DNA from: an uncultured Flavobacteriaceae bacterium
GTDB lineage: Bacteria > Bacteroidota > Bacteroidia > Flavobacteriales > Flavobacteriaceae
Reading direction: 5' to 3'
DNA length: 64,000 nucleotides
Assembly (NCBI GenBank): GCA_943789365.1
Contig: CALSTV010000001.1
Span: forward strand, 1,674,001 to 1,738,000
Within the stretch, counting starts at the first letter, position 1, and every line of letters begins with the position of its first letter. Both the position numbers and the translations under genes were made by a program. Positions 4,962 through 64,000 of the stretch are shown one piece after another. The notes below the pieces were generated by a model, which made no database searches, was not told where the DNA came from, and saw nothing but the letters and a program-made list of their open reading frames with translations.

Positions 4962-5876
4962 CTATGAAATCTTATTATATATTTTTCTTTTAATTTTTGT
5001 TCTTTCTCTGCTGTCTCTTTTTGTTTTCTTTTTGCTACCGTCTTTTAAATATTGAATAAAGTAACTTCCTTCAAATCTATAGGTAGTTTCAGAATCTATG
5101 TGAAACAACTCTACAATACTATCATTTATAACGACCAATTCAAAGGTTTCTGTATCATGGGAATCATAACTTAATGTTAAAATCTTTAAATTTTCAAAGC
5201 CTTCTACATCAAAAACCTCATATGCGCCACTATAATTCCAGTTTATAAAATCAATATTCGTGCCAAAAAGGCTTTTAGAAGCATAAAATGTAGCATCGAA
5301 TTCTGGTGTAAACTTTAAAAAATTTTCATTATCGAATTCATTGAACCGTCCGTGGTTGCTTCGAAATATCTTTGTCCAGATTTCATAGTCTTGTAGGAGG
5401 TATTCTATATTTTCGTAAAACAGTTTGTCATAATCAAATTCATCTACCCCATAACCTATTAAATAATATGAGGTACGTGTAGCAGGATGGTACATTTCTA
5501 TTTCGTTTTGCGAAATTTGCTTTATTTCATAGGAGTCAATTCCATCCAACTCATGATTGGTGACCAAAGTATCTCCAGCCCATGAATAACTACCCACTTG
5601 AATACCATAACCGTTGCCTATATAGCCAATTTCGGAAATATTATTATTTGCAAATAATGCGCCCCGATCGAAAGAAAGTGTAAATGCTAATTTCATATAA
5701 GGAATTGCATCTTGACCTTGTGTTTGGTGATAATCTACATACCAGAGATCGTAGTCTTCAACAAAAGCAGCCTCCGCTACTTTTGGATAGTACACTTCTT
5801 CTACATAGACATCTGTACACGAAGTACCCATTGACAATAAACCGATAAAAACGAAATATAAAGTAGTTTTCTTCAT
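4962..5876 (-). CDS. Secreted lipoprotein of unknown function
   Basis: A protein of 304 residues with a signal peptide and lipobox ending SMGTSC (Cys20), so it should be a membrane-anchored lipoprotein. The body is rich in Tyr, Asp and Phe and has a tract DYDLWYVDYHQTQG early on, a pattern I remember from a flavobacterial lipoprotein family sometimes labelled nicotinic acid mononucleotide adenylyltransferase. I see no nucleotide-transfer motif that would support that label. The C-terminus is a basic tail (KKKTKRDSRERTK), odd for an exported protein. It is a single gene followed by a strong terminator. Confidence 0.75.
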   Translation of the reverse strand: MKKTTLYFVFIGLLSMGTSCTDVYVEEVYYPKVAEAAFVEDYDLWYVDYHQTQGQDAIPYMKLAFTLSFDRGALFANNNISEIGYIGNGYGIQVGSYSWAGDTLVTNHELDGIDSYEIKQISQNEIEMYHPATRTSYYLIGYGVDEFDYDKLFYENIEYLLQDYEIWTKIFRSNHGRFNEFDNENFLKFTPEFDATFYASKSLFGTNIDFINWNYSGAYEVFDVEGFENLKILTLSYDSHDTETFELVVINDSIVELFHIDSETTYRFEGSYFIQYLKDGSKKKTKRDSRERTKIKRKIYNKIS

Positions 5877-6007
5877 AGTGATAGGGATTAGCTAGCAATA
5901 CCTATTCAAAGTCTGTGCCAAAAAACCATTAAGTCCTATAACGGCTGTCCCAAATCACTGTATTTGGTATTCCTAAAAAAATTACTTTCCTCCATCCTCC
6001 TCCTTGT

Positions 6008-6739
6008 TTATTTTGCCATTTGCTCCTCTAATTTCAAAGCCTTGGGATGCAGTATATTATTTTCCAAATGAATGTGAAGATGCAGATCTTCTTCAAACTC
6101 TTGGAGTGCTGTATAGAACGCCTTTAAAGTAGTACAAGCCGTATTTGGAGGCGTATAATTTTTGGCAAGAGCCGAGATTCTTTTGAAAAGATTTCCTGCA
6201 TTTTCGTGCGCTGCTTCCATTAATTGGATAGGATTTTCGATGGCTTCAAAACCTGTAGTTACCAGTGCTTCCTTTTGTTTTTGAACCGCTACCAAGTGCT
6301 TAATATAAGGAAACAACACCTGTTCTTCTTCTTTCATATGCGTCACTAACGCTTCGGAAACTTCTCTGAAAAGAGATTTTATTTCTAGCAATTCTGGATA
6401 ATGAATTCCATGTACATTGGCTACCTTGTTAGCATATTGTTGGATCTTCTCAATATTGGCTGTAACATAAGCATGATGAATATGAACAATATGATCCATC
6501 AAAAAATTCACATCCCAGCTCACATAGTCATAAACCTTATTTTTTAACTGAGAAATATTTTGCAATGCCCATTGCAATTCTTTATACATCAATCCTTTCT
6601 CGTCACATATTTTTCGGAGCGACACATCTCCTCCACAACAAAAATCAATTTCATACTTTTTAAACACATCAATCGTTTCGATGTTATAGGAAACGATTTC
6701 TGCAACACTACTATTCTCTGTTATGGTCAACATAGGCAA
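6008..6739 (-). CDS. ric: Iron-sulfur cluster repair di-iron protein (RIC/ScdA/YtfE family)
   Basis: Repairs iron-sulfur clusters damaged by nitric oxide or oxidants, using a di-iron site. The protein has 243 residues. The short N-terminal ScdA domain carries the CCGG motif at residues 34-37, and the rest is a hemerythrin-like helical bundle with His/Glu ligands in DHIVHIHHAY, THMKEEE, HENAGN and HLHIHLENN. Length and layout match the family. It could start at Met1 or Met3. A TATATTTG box lies 39 bases upstream, and the gene is separated from ssb by a terminator, so it is probably a single stress-response gene. I found no clear FNR/NO-responsive dyad. Confidence 0.92.
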   Translation of the reverse strand: MPMLTITENSSVAEIVSYNIETIDVFKKYEIDFCCGGDVSLRKICDEKGLMYKELQWALQNISQLKNKVYDYVSWDVNFLMDHIVHIHHAYVTANIEKIQQYANKVANVHGIHYPELLEIKSLFREVSEALVTHMKEEEQVLFPYIKHLVAVQKQKEALVTTGFEAIENPIQLMEAAHENAGNLFKRISALAKNYTPPNTACTTLKAFYTALQEFEEDLHLHIHLENNILHPKALKLEEQMAK

Positions 6740-6777
6740 AAATTAAATTTTTAAAAGACTATTTTATCTTTTTTTTA

Positions 6778-6785
6778 CAAATATA
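6778..6785 (-). promoter_or_regulatory. Candidate -7 box for ric
   Basis: On the minus strand the sequence reads TATATTTG, matching the Bacteroidetes TAnnTTTG -7 element, 39 bases before the ric start codon. No convincing -33 partner was seen. Confidence 0.4.
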
Positions 6786-6840
6786 GATAATTGCCGCTCA
6801 TAATGATCTTTTTTTTATATAATTCTCTCTAGAACACAAA

Positions 6841-6870
6841 AAAGGTCACTTCTTAAGAAGTGACCCTTTT
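6841..6870 (-). terminator. Rho-independent terminator of ssb
   Basis: Near-perfect palindrome with arms GGTCACTTCTT (6844-6854) and AAGAAGTGACC (6855-6865), flanked by A and T runs. On the minus strand it ends in a T run just after the ssb stop codon. It could also act on the opposite strand. Confidence 0.85.
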
Positions 6871-6894
6871 TCAACTAATACACAAAGATCAAAA

Positions 6895-7236
6895 TCAAGT
6901 ACTTTTGTTTCCGAAGAGCTGAATATCGTGAACTATTATCTCGGTGGTATAACGATTGATACCTTCTTTATCTTCGTATTTCTGATGTGTCAATTTGCCT
7001 TCAACTGCAATTTCTTTTCCTTTCTTCACATACTTATCTACAACATCTGTAAGTTTACCCCAAACCACAATTCTATGCCACTGGGTGTCTTCTATTTTCT
7101 CCCCAGCAGCATTTGTATAAGCTTCACTTGTGGCCATAGCAAATTTTGCCAATTTCTTACCAGAATCTAACTCAATAATCTCAGGATCGACTCCTAAACG
7201 CCCAATCAATTGGACTTTGTTTCTCAAATTACTCAT
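6895..7236 (-). CDS. ssb: Single-stranded DNA-binding protein
   Basis: OB-fold protein that coats single-stranded DNA. From the ATG at 7236 it has 113 residues beginning MSNLRNKVQLIGRLG, the usual SSB start; the open frame continues 17 codons further upstream but that extension resembles nothing in the family. The strands NKVQLIGRLG, FAMATSE and WHRIVVWGKL, and the later VEGKLTHQKYEDKEG, are all recognisable. It is shorter than the main replicative SSBs because it lacks the flexible tail and acidic DDDLPF-like tip, so it may be an accessory SSB. It is a monocistronic gene ended by a terminator. Confidence 0.93.
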   Translation of the reverse strand: MSNLRNKVQLIGRLGVDPEIIELDSGKKLAKFAMATSEAYTNAAGEKIEDTQWHRIVVWGKLTDVVDKYVKKGKEIAVEGKLTHQKYEDKEGINRYTTEIIVHDIQLFGNKST

Positions 7237-31707: not shown

Positions 31708-31738
31708 GTTTTGGCTATTAACTTATTCGCCAGAGGCG

Positions 31739-31786
31739 GGTTGTTGGGTTCTTTAGTTGTTCGGTTATTTGGTTTTCGGGTTATTT
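31739..31786 (+). repeat. Octamer array, consensus GGTTNTTN, six units
   Basis: GGTT (once AGTT) recurs at 31739, 31747, 31755, 31763, 31771 and 31779, exactly 8 bases apart, each followed by four variable, T-rich bases. The units are not identical, so it is a degenerate, not a slippage-fresh, array. Confidence 0.75.
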
Positions 31787-31793
31787 TCCATTG

Positions 31794-31828
31794 CTACCTG
31801 CTACCTGCTACCTGCTACCTGCTACCTG
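31794..31828 (+). repeat. Heptamer array CTACCTG, five perfect units
   Basis: Five perfect copies of CTACCTG head to tail (31794-31828), starting 7 bases after the octamer array. The reverse complement is CAGGTAG, which shares CAGG with arrays at 34123 and 49713. Confidence 0.95.
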
Positions 31829-31900
31829 CTAAATTAAAAAATCGGTTAGCAAACACCAAACCGCTGATAAATGTTTGAAAGTAAAAGGTCAAAAATCTAC

Positions 31901-31958: not shown

Positions 31959-32309
31959 TCACACTTCTTCCGAGCTAAAATACTTTACAATGGCTTCCTT
32001 CATCAAAATAGTTTGTTCTCCTGGTTTTAAAGTGGGGAGTTCTTCCAACACTTTAAAATGTGGCCAGCCGTCGGGGTCTACAAAATCGAACTCATAATAA
32101 CCATAGGGTTCCAATAAACGACAAATAGCAATATGCATCAGGTTGACTTTCTCGTCTTTTTTAAAGCTCTGAAAACCTTTTCCAAGCTCCTGTACACCTA
32201 TCAAATAGATAATAGAATCAAGATCCAATGGATCTCCATCTGAGAATTTGTCGGAAAGAAATTTTACAACCGATTCCCATTCTTCTTTTAAGTGTATATC
32301 TCTTGACAT
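31959..32309 (-). CDS. Conserved hypothetical protein next to sufD
   Basis: A protein of 116 residues, acidic, with the stretch LDLDSIIYLIGVQELGKG, LMHIAICRLLEPYGYYEF and DPDGWPHFKVLEELP. I do not recognise a named family but recall similar small proteins beside suf genes in flavobacteria. No signal peptide or cysteine motif is present. It starts 40 bases after the sufD stop on the same strand and may belong to the suf transcript; a link to cluster assembly is only suggested by position. Confidence 0.75.
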   Translation of the reverse strand: MSRDIHLKEEWESVVKFLSDKFSDGDPLDLDSIIYLIGVQELGKGFQSFKKDEKVNLMHIAICRLLEPYGYYEFDFVDPDGWPHFKVLEELPTLKPGEQTILMKEAIVKYFSSEEV

Positions 32310-32349
32310 CTTGTTTTATCTAATTGCTGATTTCCTTTTAAGACAAAAT

Positions 32350-33672
32350 CTAGAGATCGAAACCTATTTTAACGTCCAATTTCTTCGCTATTATGGCGTT
32401 AATTCTTGTTTTCAATTCCGGAATTTTTACATCTTTCAATGCGTCATTTGAAAACGCATACATCAACAAAGCTTTCGCTTCTTTTTTAGGGATTCCTCTT
32501 TGTTGCATATAGAACAAAGCACTTTCATCTAACTGCCCAATTGTACAACCATGTGAACATTTTACATCGTCTGCAAAAATTTCCAATTGTGGTTTTGAGT
32601 TTACGGAAGCTTTATCCCCCACAATCACGTTGTTGTTTTGTTGGTAGGCATTAATCTTCTGCGCCGCTTGCTCAACAATTACTTTCCCGTTGAAAACACC
32701 GGTAGATTTCTCATCGTAAATTCCTTTGTACATTTCATGCGACTCACAGTTAGGAGCTTTGTGTTGTACCAAGGTATGATTGTCTACATGTTGCTTTCCG
32801 TTTAAGATGGAAATACCATTCATATGAGATACACAGTGCTCACCATTTTGATAAAATTCTAAGTTGTTACGTGTGAGTTTCCCTCCAAAAGAAAAAGTAT
32901 GTACTGATGCAACACTATCTTTTTGTTGAGACACAAAGGTTCCGTCTATCAATGATGCACTTTCCACATCGTTCTGCATTTTATAAAAATCCACAATACC
33001 TCTTTTGTTGACAAATATTTCTGTTACCGAATTTGTCAACGTAGTATTGGAAGTCAAACTCTGATGACGTTCTATGATTTGAACATGCGCATTCTCTCCA
33101 ACTACGACAAGATTTCGAGGCTGTATCAACAATTCTTGTTCATTTCCCGTAGAGAAATTCAATATTTGAATAGGTTTTGGAACGACTTTATTCTTTGGAA
33201 TATTTATAAAAGCTCCTTCATTTGAAAAGGCCGTATTTAAGTCGGAAAGGCTGTTATTTTCTTTTGCCAATTTGTTGAAATAAGCGTCAACCACCATTTT
33301 GTATTTGGGTTTTGTCAATGCCGATGACATGACACAAACATCCAATCCATCATGGGTTGTTTCCGACAAAAAGGAACTGAATTTACCATCGATAAAAACC
33401 AAATTATAGCAATCAGTTTCGTTGACAAAATACTTTTTAATGTCTTTATACGCCAAAGAGGTTTCGGCCTTAGGAAAAACATTGTAATCGTGACTTAAAA
33501 CTGCGTTTAAGCTGGTATATTTCCATTCCTCGTCTTTCCTTGTTGGAAATCCTTTGTTTTCAAAATCGCTAAACGCTTTTGAACGTATATCGTGTACATT
33601 CGAATCTATGTCTACATCAACTTTGTTTTCAAAGGCTAAAAACGAGGATACTAATTTTTCTTTTAATTCCAT
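32350..33672 (-). CDS. sufD: Fe-S cluster assembly scaffold SufD
   Basis: Part of the SufBC2D scaffold that builds iron-sulfur clusters. The protein has 440 residues with the C-terminal SUFBD beta-helix core (FNGKVIVEQAAQKINAYQQN, then AQLEIFADDVKCSHGCTIGQ-like region and QQRGIPKKEAKALLMYAF). The conserved HG/Cys region KCSHGCT fits SufD. The order on the minus strand is sufA-sufB-sufC-(four-helix gene)-sufD; in relatives sufD directly follows sufC, so about 510 bases have been inserted upstream of it. Confidence 0.96.
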   Translation of the reverse strand: MELKEKLVSSFLAFENKVDVDIDSNVHDIRSKAFSDFENKGFPTRKDEEWKYTSLNAVLSHDYNVFPKAETSLAYKDIKKYFVNETDCYNLVFIDGKFSSFLSETTHDGLDVCVMSSALTKPKYKMVVDAYFNKLAKENNSLSDLNTAFSNEGAFINIPKNKVVPKPIQILNFSTGNEQELLIQPRNLVVVGENAHVQIIERHQSLTSNTTLTNSVTEIFVNKRGIVDFYKMQNDVESASLIDGTFVSQQKDSVASVHTFSFGGKLTRNNLEFYQNGEHCVSHMNGISILNGKQHVDNHTLVQHKAPNCESHEMYKGIYDEKSTGVFNGKVIVEQAAQKINAYQQNNNVIVGDKASVNSKPQLEIFADDVKCSHGCTIGQLDESALFYMQQRGIPKKEAKALLMYAFSNDALKDVKIPELKTRINAIIAKKLDVKIGFDL

Positions 33673-33693
33673 TAATTCGTTATGTTTTAAAAG

Positions 33694-33714
33694 TTTCGGG
33701 TTTAAAGTTTCGGG
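33694..33714 (+). repeat. Heptamer array TTTCGGG/TTTAAAG next to the four-helix gene
   Basis: Three heptamers, TTTCGGG, TTTAAAG, TTTCGGG, end at 33714, directly against the stop codon of the gene at 33715-34104. A TTTTAAAAG stretch precedes them. On this strand they point the opposite way to the related TTTCAGG heptamers at 34123-34150. Confidence 0.8.
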
Positions 33715-34104
33715 TTATTTAAACTTACTTCCTTTAAAATCCTTTTTATTTAGATAAAAAATAAAACTCGCAATTCTTTTACTCAATTGCTCGTATGCTT
33801 CCTTTAATTTATTTAATTGTTGTTCTGAAATATAACCAGAATCAAATACTCTATACAATTGGGATCTTGTTTCTCCAGCCGACCCTTTTGCAATAGATAG
33901 AAATTGTCTGAATTCTAAATTCCCATCTCTCTCAAATCCTTCTGCTATATTATCCATAACGGAACCAGCAGCACTTTTTATTTGATCTTTTAACCTAAAA
34001 TCTTTATTTAAATCTGTAGATTTCGAAATCAAAATAATTTCATTGGATAGTTTTCTTGCTTCCTGCCAAATTTCCAGATCTTCAAACTTATGAATTGTTG
34101 CCAT
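33715..34104 (-). CDS. Four-helix-bundle protein (23S rRNA intervening-sequence protein / bAvd family)
   Basis: A protein of 129 residues from the ATG at 34104 (MATIHKFEDLEIWQEARKL). The family pattern is clear: FEDLEIWQ-A, LKDQIKSAAGSVMDNIAEGFER, FRQFLSIAKGSAGETRSQL and a last helix LSKRIASFIFYL. Relatives are encoded in intervening sequences of 23S rRNA genes and resemble Avd of diversity-generating retroelements; the function is not settled. Reading upstream of the start translates the heptamer array as FQVSGFRFQV, which is not part of the protein. It interrupts the suf operon between sufC and sufD, same strand, and is bracketed by heptamer arrays. Confidence 0.92.
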   Translation of the reverse strand: MATIHKFEDLEIWQEARKLSNEIILISKSTDLNKDFRLKDQIKSAAGSVMDNIAEGFERDGNLEFRQFLSIAKGSAGETRSQLYRVFDSGYISEQQLNKLKEAYEQLSKRIASFIFYLNKKDFKGSKFK

Positions 34105-34122
34105 AGATATTACTATATTTTC

Positions 34123-34180
34123 AACCTGAAACCTGAAACCTGAAACTTGAAACCCACCAAAGGCGGACAAACCTGAAACT
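34123..34180 (-). repeat. Heptamer array AACCTGA and conserved right-end motif
   Basis: Units AACCTGA (three), AACTTGA and AACCCAC run from 34123 to 34157, period 7, starting 18 bases upstream of the four-helix start codon. The next part, CCACCAAAGGCGG then ACAAACCTGAAACTAA, recurs upstream of sufC at 34979-35014. On the minus strand the unit reads TTTCAGG. Confidence 0.9.
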
Positions 34181-34183
34181 AAA

Positions 34184-34927
34184 CTACAATTCTTTAATCC
34201 AGTCGTATCCTTTTTCTTCTAATTCTAGCGCCAATTCTTTGGTTCCAGATTTTACAATCTTACCGTCGTGTAATACATGTACAAAATCGGGAACTATATA
34301 GTCTAACAAACGTTGGTAATGCGTAATAACAATAACCGCGTTGTCTTTAGATTTTAATTTATTGACACCATTGGCAACAATTCTCAAGGCATCGATATCC
34401 AAGCCAGAATCTGTTTCGTCCAAAATTGCCAATTTAGGTTCTAGCATGGCCATTTGGAAAATTTCATTTCGCTTCTTTTCTCCTCCAGAAAAACCTTCAT
34501 TTAAAGAACGTGATAAGAACTTTCGGTCAATTTCTAACAACTGTGATTTTTCGCGAATTTTCTTTAACAAATCTTTAGCAGGCATCTCTTCCAAACCTTG
34601 TGCTTTTCTAGATTCATTGATTGATGATTTGATAAAGTTCGTTACCGTTACACCAGGAATCTCAACCGGGTATTGGAATGATAAAAACACCCCTGCATGT
34701 GCTCTTTCTTCTGGAGCCAATTCGCTAATATCTTCTCCGTTCAATTCAATGGTTCCACCAGTTACTTCATATTCCTCCTTACCGGCAATTACAGAAGCCA
34801 TCGTACTTTTACCCGCTCCATTAGGTCCCATGATAGCATGCACCTCACCTGCTTTTACTTCAATATTCAATCCTTTTAGAATCTCTTTATCTTCAATTTG
34901 GGCTTGTAAATTCTCAATCTTTAACAT
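34184..34927 (-). CDS. sufC: Fe-S cluster assembly ATPase SufC
   Basis: ABC-type ATPase that drives the SufBC2D scaffold. The protein has 247 residues with Walker A GPNGAGKST, the signature GFSGGEKKRNEIFQ, Walker B LAILDETDSGLD and the switch histidine VITHYQRLL. All parts are intact. Both ends of the gene are bordered by the same repeat tract (34144-34180 and 34979-35014), so it sits between two copies of an array end. It follows sufB on the same strand after 92 bases. Confidence 0.98.
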   Translation of the reverse strand: MLKIENLQAQIEDKEILKGLNIEVKAGEVHAIMGPNGAGKSTMASVIAGKEEYEVTGGTIELNGEDISELAPEERAHAGVFLSFQYPVEIPGVTVTNFIKSSINESRKAQGLEEMPAKDLLKKIREKSQLLEIDRKFLSRSLNEGFSGGEKKRNEIFQMAMLEPKLAILDETDSGLDIDALRIVANGVNKLKSKDNAVIVITHYQRLLDYIVPDFVHVLHDGKIVKSGTKELALELEEKGYDWIKEL

Positions 34928-34978
34928 TGTCTTTATATTTTTGATTTATTGTTTCTTGTTTCTAGTTATTAGACAAAC

Positions 34979-35014
34979 AACTTGAAACCCACCAAGGGTG
35001 GCAAAACCTGAAAC
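34979..35014 (-). repeat. Second copy of the array end motif, upstream of sufC
   Basis: CTTGAAACCCACCAAGGG then TGGCAAAACCTGAAACTAA closely matches 34144-34180, with a small CCACC/GGTGG inverted pair. It lies between the sufB stop and the sufC start, so it is part of the operon mRNA. Confidence 0.85.
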
Positions 35015-35019
35015 TAATT

Positions 35020-36468
35020 CTATCCTACAGATCCTTCTAAACTAATTTCTAATAATTTTTGTGCTTCTACAGCAAATTCCATTGGTAACTTATTCAATAC
35101 ATCTTTACTAAATCCATTCACAATCAGTGCAATGGCTTTTTCTGTATCGATTCCTCTTTGGTTACAATAGAACAGTTGGTCTTCACCAATTTTACTAGTG
35201 GTTGCTTCGTGTTCTATTTGTGCTGTTGTGTTTTTTGCTTCTATATATGGAAAGGTATGCGCACCACATTGATCGCCCATCAATAGCGAATCGCATTGTG
35301 AGAAATTACGTGCATTCTCTGCTCGTGCGTTAATTTGCACCAATCCTCTATAGCTGTTTTGTGATTTACCTGCTGAGATTCCTTTAGAAATAATCGTACT
35401 CTTGGTATTCTTTCCAAGATGAATCATTTTAGTACCTGTGTCTGCCTGCTGGAAGTTATTGGTTACGGCAATCGAATAAAACTCTCCAACGGAATTGTTT
35501 CCTTTCAAAATACATGAAGGATACTTCCAAGTCACTGCCGATCCAGTTTCTACCTGTGTCCATGAAATTTTTGCATTGGTTTCGCAGATCCCTCTTTTCG
35601 TTACAAAATTGTATACACCTCCTTGTCCCTCTTTGTCTCCTGGGAACCAGTTCTGAACGGTAGAGTATTTAATTTCAGCAGCATCCATGGCAATCAACTC
35701 AACTACTGCTGCATGCAACTGATTCTCATCTCTTGCTGGTGCTGTACACCCTTCAAGGTAACTTACATAACTGCTTTCATCAGCAATTAATAATGTACGC
35801 TCGAACTGACCAGTACCACCTTCGTTGATTCTAAAATAAGTCGACAGTTCCATTGGGCATTTTACGCCTTTTGGAATGTAACAAAAAGAACCATCCGTAA
35901 ATACGGCAGAATTCAATGCTGCGTAGAAATTATCTGTTTTAGGAACTACGGTTCCCATATATTTTTTTACCAATTCAGGATGTTCCTGTATGGCTTCAGA
36001 AATAGGCATAAAAATAATTCCTTTTTCTGCTAAGGTCTTTTTAAAAGTCGTTGCCACTGAAACAGAATCGACAACGATATCTACGGCAACCCCCTGTAAT
36101 TTCTTTTGTTCGTCTACAGAAATCCCTAGTTTTTTGTACATCTCCAAAAGCTCAGGATCTACATCGTCCAAAGATTTGTTAGGATCTGCTTTTTTAGGCG
36201 CAGAATAGTAACTGATTGCCTGAAAATCTGGCTTTTCATAGTTTACATTTGCCCATTCCGGTTCCTCCATTTGCTCCCAAATACGAAAAGCATCTAGGCG
36301 CCATTCAGTCATCCATTCCGGCTCATTTTTCTTTTTAGAAATGGCACGTACAATGTCTTCGTTCAACCCTTTAGGAAAGGTATCCGACTCTATATCTGTA
36401 TAAAAACCATACTCATATTCTTGAGTTTCTAGTTCTTTTTTTAAATCGTCTTCTGTATATTTTGACAT
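35020..36468 (-). CDS. sufB: Fe-S cluster assembly scaffold SufB
   Basis: Main scaffold subunit on which new clusters form. The protein has 482 residues with [37 protein letters not shown]-like entry, [18 protein letters not shown], and the C-terminal [20 protein letters not shown] and [22 protein letters not shown] conserved cysteine (CNQRG) is in place. It starts 43 bases after the sufA stop and leads into sufC. Confidence 0.98.
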
Positions 36469-36511
36469 CTCTACAATTTTTCAATCATTCAATTCTACAA
36501 TCATTTAATTT

Positions 36512-36841
36512 TTAGAGTGAAAACGACTCTCCACAACCACATGTTCTGCTTGCATTGGGATTGTTAAAAACAAAACCGGTTCCGTTTAAACCTCCAGAAT
36601 ACTCTAAAGTAGTACCCACCAAATACAGAAAACTCTTTTTGTCGACCACGATTCTCACGCCATTGTCTTCAAAAACTTTATCTTCTTCTTTGGTGTTTTT
36701 ATCAAAATCTAAATCGTAAGACAAACCTGAACACCCACCACTCTTTACACCTACTCGTACAAAGTCTACAGCGGTATCATACCCATCTTCCGTCATCAAT
36801 TCAATGACTTTCTTTTTAGCTACGTCAGAAACTTTTATCAT
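36512..36841 (-). CDS. sufA: A-type Fe-S carrier (HesB/IscA/SufA)
   Basis: Carries assembled clusters to target proteins. The protein has 109 residues with the three conserved cysteines: one in GGCSGLSY and two in RTCGCGESFSL at the C-terminus. It is the first gene of the operon sufA-sufB-sufC-(IVP)-sufD. The 180 bases upstream are AT-rich and hold its promoter; I saw no Rrf2/IscR gene near by and no clear operator. Confidence 0.93.
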   Translation of the reverse strand: MIKVSDVAKKKVIELMTEDGYDTAVDFVRVGVKSGGCSGLSYDLDFDKNTKEEDKVFEDNGVRIVVDKKSFLYLVGTTLEYSGGLNGTGFVFNNPNASRTCGCGESFSL

Positions 36842-37020
36842 ATCATTAGGTCACCTGTCTTTGGACAAGTGACTGCAAAGATACGACATGTATTGGTATT
36901 TAGAACAAATCTAAGTTGGATTTATTTATATAAGTATAGAAGTTCTTTATACATAAATAACTCCTGTTTATACATCTATTGAAACCTTTAAAATTAGGAA
37001 GCTTTTTTACTGTTCCTGGA

Positions 37021-49642: not shown

Positions 49643-49712
49643 ACAAATGATTTTCGAAGGCCAAAGATAGTACAATTGTTTGAGGAGTGAGGTGTTTTGT
49701 GTTTTGAGTACT

Positions 49713-49740
49713 GGCGGCAGGCGGCAGGTGGCAGGTGGCT
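49713..49740 (+). repeat. Heptamer array GGCGGCA/GGTGGCA, four units
   Basis: GGCGGCA, GGCGGCA, GGTGGCA, GGTGGCT from 49713 to 49740, period exactly 7, upstream of the ABC-F start codon. Shifted, the unit is CAGGYGG, related to CAGGTAG of the array at 31794. Confidence 0.9.
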
Positions 49741-62209: not shown

Positions 62210-62281
62210 GGTCATGCAGTCGTGCGGTCTGTTGGTCTGCTGGTCTGCTGGTCTTATCGTCGTGCCGTCATGCAGTCTTGA
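62210..62281 (+). repeat. Octamer array NGTCNNNN, nine units
   Basis: From 62210 to 62281 the sequence divides into nine octamers, each starting GGTC, AGTC or CGTC: variable parts are ATGC, GTGC, TGTT, TGCT, TGCT, TTAT, GTGC, ATGC and TTGA. A 43-base stretch (62240-62282) is identical to 63828-63870. Confidence 0.92.
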
Positions 62282-62364
62282 ACTGATAAAAAAAGGAACA
62301 GAGGGACAGAGGCGCAAAGGGTTTCGATTTATCCTACTTTTGCCTCCTGCCTATTCCCCGATGG

Positions 62365-63805: not shown

Positions 63806-63869
63806 GGTCGTGCAGTCGAGAGGTCGGCTGGTCTGCTGGTCTTATCGTCGTGCCGTCATGCAGTCTTGA
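63806..63869 (+). repeat. Octamer array NGTCNNNN, eight units
   Basis: Same octamer phase as at 62210-62281 with one unit fewer. The two arrays differ in the first units, and then 43 bases are identical. A looser run with CTA spaced about 7 bases (63896-63924) follows, also seen near 62343-62367. Confidence 0.92.
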
Positions 63870-64000
63870 AGGGTTGAATTACTCTAAAAATCTAACTACT
63901 GCCTATTGTCTAATCCCCTATGGCTACAACAACACCTTCTTTTTAAAGTTGTTCAACGAGCGATAACAAACGAATAAACTCCGATCGATAACCAAAACTA

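Follow-up and report, generated by a model that had tools for sequence, protein, structure and literature searches.

Between sufC and sufD of an uncultured Flavobacteriaceae bacterium lies a gene encoding a four-helix-bundle protein of family PF05635 (IVP), bracketed by two facing arrays of degenerate heptamers. We analyzed this locus within a 64,000-nucleotide stretch of the genome (the window) and compared it with PF05635 loci from the window's family, from cyanobacterial plasmids and from other phyla. The array, the IVP gene and the inverted array probably constitute a minimal mobile element of ~0.45-0.5 kb with the arrays as its ends. The two arms of an element have unit length and motif in common, follow the protein lineage and delimit the homology between copies, and the insertion sites are empty in related plasmids; the arrays would therefore be the ends of a mobile unit of ~0.45 kb. 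An earlier reading of the window, made from the sequence alone (the sequence-only reading), had proposed that gene and arrays form one small mobile unit of ~500 bp, and our results support this, more strongly from cyanobacterial plasmids than from the site in the window. The element and its neighbors occupy the following positions:

33715-34104, minus strand: IVP gene (PF05635, four-helix bundle, 129 aa), sense to the suf operon
34121-34179, minus strand: upstream end of the element, GTTTCAG/GTTTCAA heptamers on the coding strand, from the period-7 scan
33686-33714, minus strand: downstream end, three inverted heptamers and a few flanking bases, from pairing with the upstream arm
34184-34927, minus strand: sufC, host gene upstream of the element (ABC_tran Pfam match)
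32350-33672, minus strand: sufD, host gene downstream of the element (Pfam)
35020-36468: sufB (Pfam)
34932-35016, minus strand: gene-less inverted heptamer pair of the GTTTC family between sufB and sufC (pairing by eye)

Pfam confirms the placement of the gene between sufC and sufD given by the sequence-only reading, sufC being named from its position beside sufB and sufD. The heptamer arrays which that reading described on either side of the gene, facing each other, are also present, the downstream arm being significant only as part of the pair. Arrays were scored by a scan of periods 5-12 over 250-bp flanks, with a score of at least 12 as the threshold. In the upstream arm, CCTGAAA-type units begin ~18 bases 5' of the IVP start, are contiguous at 34123-34153 and, after a 16-bp interruption (34154-34169), are followed by one further unit (34170-34179). 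The period-7 score of this array is 21.3; a score of 12 was reached in 1/166 shuffled flanks and 0/120 windows from 30 GreA loci. The downstream arm, TTTCGGG-TTTAAAG-TTTCGGG at 33694-33714 (CCCGAAA CTTTAAA CCCGAAA on the coding strand), ends immediately before the IVP stop codon. Taken alone, this three-unit array is not significant (best score of its flank 7.3, at period 9); it becomes significant when paired, in inverted orientation, with the upstream arm. The inverted score of the two arms, 18, was equalled by 0/82 other downstream arms and reached against the window downstream arm by 1/82 other upstream arms, and the score of the trimmed pair was matched once in 2,000 block shuffles. A mechanically called, TTG-started open reading frame (ORF) at 33715-34170 reads MSAFGGFQVSGFRFQVENIV..., which is the array in translation and a counterpart to the FQVSSFKFQV-like N-terminus that the sequence-only reading had mentioned.

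Arrays beside PF05635 genes

Degenerate 7-mer and, less often, 8-mer arrays are a general property of PF05635 gene flanks. The family is present in 95/120 genomes of the window's family, from which 94 loci were chosen by hidden Markov model (HMM) score, some of them overlapping; 93 had an HMM hit and 83 were full length. Scores of at least 12 were found in 28/83 upstream and 33/83 downstream flanks, at periods of 7 (46 flanks), 8 (14) and 9 (1). Besides the shuffles and GreA loci given above, control regions at 800-1050 bp passed in 3/83 and 0/83 cases and tiles of the window in 5/255. A broader set comprised 13/31 matched plasmid records and the best 80 of 585 confirmed genome contigs, belonging by record title to Cyanobacteria, Acidobacteriota, Omnitrophota, Planctomycetales, Acetothermia, Hydrogenedentota, Clostridia, Proteobacteria and Gemmatimonadota. 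Here 48/85 and 53/85 flanks reached the threshold, mainly at period 7 (or 14) and 8, against 6/82 in the far control.

The two sets yielded 173 full IVP copies, or 168 after removal of one duplicate and four with short flanks. Because the GreA-locus and far-flank controls are largely coding DNA, a 200-bp intergenic control was added, in which 168/336 IVP flanks scored at least 12, compared with 5/296 intergenic windows from IVP-free genomes, 16/329 from IVP-rich genomes and 11/155 from the window genome. A score of at least 10 on at least one side was found for 138/168 copies. The comparison of array frequency beside IVP genes and elsewhere, which the sequence-only reading had suggested as a check, thus gives strong enrichment with intergenic controls included.

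The window genome has 10 PF05635 matches, of which six are intact full-length genes and the rest are relics in three locations (one truncated by a stop, one in two pieces and one a 29-residue fragment). By eye, eight of these loci (the six intact genes and two relics) have array-like flanks with a different motif at each, examples being CGAACAT, TTGTTGG, AGCCGAA, AATTACG and TAGGCAA. The array threshold is reached on at least one side by 4/6 intact copies (L001, L003, the window element L004, and L005). L001 and L005 (C1:2294388 and 2291615) are distinct IVP genes ~2.5 kb apart, one with an array of period 7 and the other of period 8.

Shared arms and inheritance with the protein

Both ends of an element share unit length and motif and evolve in concert at a fixed site. 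Among 83 loci, the inverted similarity of the arms was 16.5 within a locus and 10.1 across loci (0/10,000 permutations), with same-orientation values of 11.4 and 9.7. Unit length, with 7 or 8 offered, was identical in both arms at 61/61 loci where both pass, and 54 of these loci have their arms inverted. The same holds within orthologous sites, where an arm matched its own partner at 16.5 versus 13.1 for others (six homology-based sites, 73 loci, 0/5,000); taken one by one, 5/6 sites were significant and the remaining one (n=5) was not. Hand-made site lists gave within-site covariation at the met site (n=10, p=0.009) and no significant effect at the fad site (n=15, 15.40 vs 15.21). That the arms are copies of each other, carrying variant units in the same order as after template switching, was tested in 47 loci and not supported (p=0.92). 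Since they lack a common order of variant units, the arms are not mere copies of one another, and something holds both to the same unit.

Motif and unit length are inherited with the IVP protein, and not with the genome or the site. In 116 pairs of close IVPs with non-homologous flanks, the 5-mer overlap of the arrays was 0.244 versus 0.084 when permuted (0/5,000), while different IVPs within one genome gave 0.090 (23 pairs). Changes between unit lengths of 7 and 8 on the IVP tree numbered 11, compared with 17.9 when shuffled (0/1,000). Across phyla, an AGCT-type unit is common to L033, from the window's family, and L126/L127, from cyanobacterial plasmids. Other array types include GAGTCAG for the IVP of Trichormus variabilis plasmid C and GGGAACA for that of Nostoc C052.

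A passive origin, in which polymerase slippage makes intergenic heptamer arrays and IVP genes are merely located in such regions, seems highly improbable given that motif and unit length are common to both arms, that the motif tracks the protein, and that arrays are enriched beside IVP genes even with intergenic windows as the control. It would fit the greater similarity of neighboring than of distant array units (0.774 vs 0.723) and the occurrence of free arrays; a passage of PMC4679880 also cites an earlier survey that found heptanucleotides to outnumber other long simple repeats in most genomes, and a proposal of 7-nt slippage. Free period-7/8 arrays, however, number 2 per 800 kb in IVP-free genomes and 9 in IVP-rich genomes (other periods, 17 and 14). 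This contrast is suggestive only, as it is small and the window genome, with 14 free period-7/8 arrays in 400 kb, is an outlier. The idea of the sequence-only reading that the unit makes arrays gains a little from the same figures, with no sign that IVP itself is the maker. Among arrays seen in the window are an GGGTTGTT-type octamer array beside a perfect TGCTACC heptamer array between genes (31738-31831), a mixed heptamer array of GGCGGCA / GGTGGCA units (49681-49739), and, close to the end of the window, a pair of related octamer arrays (GTCGTGCAGTC...) separated by ~1.6 kb (62211-62320 and 63807-63878). In L238 a 50-bp composite heptamer array occurs three times in identical form within 0.9 kb (5525-6432), possibly as part of a larger direct repeat, and L240 has a 636-bp run of a 6-bp repeat (6530-7165).

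Insertion sites and mobility

IVP elements lie at gene junctions, and most have the sense orientation relative to the operon. By ORF calls made in this analysis, the neighbors of 165/168 copies (three had none near) were both sense in 147 cases, +>- in 10, ->+ in 5 and both antisense in 3. For the 82 sites without shared flanks, of which 79 were evaluable, the corresponding counts were 63, 8, 5 and 3. The junctions include nrdB-nrdA, cas6-cas4, cas10-cmr3 and a TraM junction. On cyanobacterial plasmids, L126, L135 and L134 are IVP elements within CRISPR operons (cas6-cas4 twice, cas10-cmr3). On Nostoc ATCC 53789 pNsp_b (290780-291395), an IVP gene is apparently in two pieces ~300 bp apart (L377 and L385), possibly split by another insertion.

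The bias of 63 sense against 3 antisense sites would also be expected of an RNA-level intervening sequence whose arms form an RNA stem, which RNase III excises from the operon mRNA as in 23S rRNA, and whose mobility, if any, proceeds via RNA and a trans-acting reverse transcriptase (RT). The arm duplex energy (-40.5 vs -27.2 kcal/mol across loci; 167 loci) and the correlation of arm lengths (rho 0.40) point the same way. We nevertheless consider this account unlikely. Transition mismatches between arms run opposite to sense G-U enrichment, with 139 compatible and 200 not (126 loci, p=0.001), so that selection for sense-RNA pairing of the arms is not supported, the sign being opposite. Expression from the host operon accounts for the sense bias without RNA excision, and the sole RT match in the window genome (L026) is partial and, by eye, group II intron-like.

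Evidence for a mobile DNA element with array ends comes from the same element at different sites. One is present at three unrelated sites on Trichormus plasmid C (L132), Aulosira plasmid2 (L133) and Nostoc pNsp_a (L136), where homology starts in the first upstream units and stops at approximately the last downstream unit, the flanks beyond being unrelated; L129 and L131 show a similar pattern of homology limited to array-gene-array. Five insertions can be compared with empty-site plasmids whose flanks are 88-99% alike. Three records carry the element at site 1 and six others, judged by coverage, lack it, their flanks being 97.6-98.4% alike; in the three empty records whose sequences were compared (L273-L275), AAAAAGTAATTAAC corresponds to AAAAAGTAAT-element-GTAATTAAC, a 5-bp duplication. 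A seventh plasmid (L277) retains an array and part of the gene. At site 3 (L136, L284 vs L281-L283), TTCTA is duplicated. Site 4 (L285 vs L284, L281) holds a different IVP one gene further along, with ATG duplicated at a TAATG stop-start overlap and a 36-bp non-array tail on the right side of the element. Short duplications thus occur at 3/5 sites (GTAAT, TTCTA and ATG; 5, 5 and 3 bp), and site 2 (L133 vs L278-L280) and site 5 (L384 vs L387, L388) are without a clean duplication, ~8 and 20 bp of target respectively being missing or replaced. L285 and L136/L284 place two different IVP elements at adjacent gene junctions of one operon on related plasmids.

The TraM site provides a sixth comparison, with occupied (L131/L221), empty (L219) and gene-less (L220) states. 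The IVP genes of L131 and L221 are 99.7% alike and their flanks only 82.6% and 88.3%, making the element there younger than the split of its surroundings; the empty L219 is closer to L131, with flanks 92.9% and 96.7% alike. These similarities point to a recent arrival or exchange (or re-acquisition) of the element. Array lengths differ by 7 bp, or one unit, between L131 and L221 and by 14 bp, or two units, between L132 and L276. L381 and L407 were discarded as an insertion pair because the right flank is rearranged, and the search for an empty site for L382 gave none usable.

Occupancy of the window's own junction is sporadic. Among the best 30 of 100 sufC-sufD loci, IVP is found in 3 and is lacking in 27, so that the gene order is not fixed and the empty sites that the sequence-only reading had thought worth seeking do exist; one of the 27 is in a genome of the same genus and has a gap of 83 bp. 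In G028 and G029, IVP adjoins sufD too, by coordinates. Such variability, the 82 sites without shared flanks and the multiple copies per genome, each with different arrays, make it quite improbable that IVP is a domesticated host gene regulating the surrounding operon from conserved sites with the arrays as its operator. Domestication would be in keeping with the retention of orthologous copies at a single site across many genera (components of 29 and 21 loci) and with purifying selection, dN/dS being 0.03-0.25 in 10/12 IVP ortholog pairs (not computable in the other two).

Several observations weigh against a mobile element with arrays as ends. Neither side reaches an array score of 10 in 30/168 copies, two intact copies of the window genome (L002 and L006) stay below 12 on both sides, and the loci were chosen by HMM score or from the best rows of longer lists, not randomly. 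The arms are direct rather than inverted in 7/61 loci, and free arrays mostly lack an inverted partner. IVP has no recognised catalytic domain. Target duplications are inconsistent in length and absent at two of five sites, which argues against a strict fixed-stagger transposase. Mobility is deduced from comparison of sequences, no movement having been observed; some empty sites may reflect loss by deletion instead of gain. At the best-sampled Bacteroidota sites (the 29 and 21 orthologous loci) the element is old and stationary, with current mobility there unproven, and the nearest empty sufC-sufD relative, from the same genus, has diverged too far for the junction to be located.

Protein, proposed mechanism and gene-less relatives

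The window IVP matches PF05635 (120.2 bits, cut-off 33.8) and TIGR02436 (108.4, cut-off 24) over its full length, and its AlphaFold2 model (pLDDT 92.4) is a four-helix bundle. Foldseek places this model closest to 2gsc (E 1.8e-5) and 2rld, which have five chains each, and then to Avd (4dwl); IVP also resembles Avd in the ribonucleoproteins of diversity-generating retroelements (DGRs). The fold is all-helical and Avd-like, and a Y1 transposase Pfam match is absent. Residues Q41, N52, E55 and E78 are invariant among IVPs. The Avd resemblance claimed by the sequence-only reading is thereby confirmed at the level of fold, but the arrays bear no diversity-generating signature.

The shared fold (PDB 4dwl, 8ub7) and the variation of units at some positions raise the prospect of a diversity generator in which IVP, like Avd in DGRs, works with an RT to diversify the arrays. 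We find this barely credible. Change rates in the units (A 0.144, C 0.184, G 0.125, T 0.146) are not adenine-specific, and DGR-like adenine mutagenesis of the arrays is rejected for lack of that signature. Neither component by which a DGR is recognized, an RT and adenine-specific mutagenesis, accompanies the window copy, and no template repeat was seen with it. The window genome has only the one partial RT, and none lies among annotated neighbors in 11 plasmid regions, the flanks of other copies not having been searched for RTs. A passage of PMC10053308 notes the homology between PF05635 and Avd.

For the mobile element we propose that IVP would act as an Avd-like pentameric ring in which every protomer binds one unit of the protein's own end repeat, presented as a single-stranded copy. 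Such binding would set a 7-8-nt ruler and tie both ends to the specificity of the protein, and it would explain why the ruler is independent of sequence, why the ends evolve in concert with no common unit order, and why the motif is inherited with the protein. The element may lack a promoter of its own and be expressed from the host operon, a dependence on host transcription that would produce the sense bias. Cutting and joining could be supplied by host enzymes, by a trans-acting RT or by an unrecognised activity of IVP. Gene-less array pairs may be mobilised in trans, much like REP units by RAYTs.

In REP/REPIN and RAYT systems, a gene lies between inverted copies of a short repeat that is also dispersed without the gene. 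IVP genes too are found between inverted short repeats that also occur without them; unlike a RAYT, however, IVP is not a Y1 HUH enzyme, its ends are tandem 7-8-mers instead of palindromes, and gene and arrays insert together. The window element has no recognisable DDE, HUH or recombinase gene, IVP being its sole gene and PF05635 its sole Pfam match. Cyanobacterial STRRs are bacterial heptanucleotide repeats, intergenic and tandem like the IVP arrays and partly from the same phyla. The TAACTGA heptamers that a passage of PMC4679880 describes in Beggiatoaceae, Cyanobacteria and Bacteroidetes share these traits, and the same source speculates that the mobile element could be a repeat-binding protein. 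The window element likewise carries tandem degenerate 7-mers in intergenic DNA, as in long simple-sequence repeats, and it has complementary ends bracketing an S23 ORF.

The latter arrangement recalls the intervening sequence in Coxiella 23S rRNA, which, in the passages of PMC4990558 that describe it, encodes a protein of the same family within ~430 nt, has inverted ends in the form of a 28-bp terminal stem, and carries GACAGAT heptamers in strain-variable number upstream of the S23p start. Excision by RNase III is reported there and mobility is hypothetical; the heptamers figure in that account as a local detail. Intervening sequences of this kind lie in rRNA helices, whereas IVP elements lie between protein genes and have the arrays themselves as both ends; the window element is between sufC and sufD and not in a 23S rRNA gene, Rfam at the gathering threshold giving no match over 32000-37000. 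We suggest that 23S rRNA intervening sequences with S23 ORFs may be the same elements residing in rRNA operons.

In the open-access PMC literature (preprints and most subscription journals lie outside it) we did not find IVP genes linked with heptamer arrays in general, and such a link may exist elsewhere. The terms '23S', 'four helix' and 'IVP' are absent from the main text of PMC4679880, four helix bundle genes are merely listed in a passage of PMC5524665, and the relevant passages of PMC4990558, PMC4679880, PMC10053308 and PMC5524665 do not connect arrays as element ends to IVP genes. The 23S intervening sequences look like the first known members of the element class. More broadly, and tentatively, IVP elements could be a pan-bacterial class of miniature mobile elements that has so far gone unrecognised. 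Each would encode one Avd-like ring protein able to read, and perhaps to help build, a private 7-8-nt end repeat, and would move by a mechanism unlike known transposition chemistry; 23S intervening sequences, cyanobacterial STRRs and a large part of the intergenic heptamers still lacking an explanation would then be members, derivatives or debris.

Such a class offers an owner for two old puzzles, the role of the S23/IVP protein, whose structures were released in 2006-2007, and the origin of degenerate bacterial heptamer repeats, many of which IVP elements may account for. Each element carries a candidate reader beside its own repeat, and array swaps between elements would therefore be natural specificity assays. 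Should the chemistry turn out not to depend on known transposases, this would be a new way of moving DNA. Elements of ~0.5 kb fit between the genes of operons (suf, nrd, cas, conjugation), where they mostly escape notice and can cause start codons to be miscalled.

Some forms have the ends of IVP elements but no gene. On Nostocales plasmids, the terminus family AATTGCG ends both the IVP element L381 and four gene-less inverted pairs (L406, L408, L409 and L410), which are ~140-190 bp long, have unrelated flanks and are weakly alike in their interiors. Gene-less inverted CAGTNNN arrays are discernible by eye in 5/27 of the IVP-less sufC-sufD loci (L246, L254, L257, L258 and L260). In the window, the pair between sufB and sufC consists of an GTTTCTTG-type array (34932-34972) and CTTGAAAC/CCTGAAAC units (~34979-35016). 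This pair and the upstream array of the IVP element are both interrupted by a near-identical stretch, CCCACCAARGGYGG, a pattern with only these two matches in 464 kb of the window genome, and the pair is possibly a non-autonomous relative of the IVP element.

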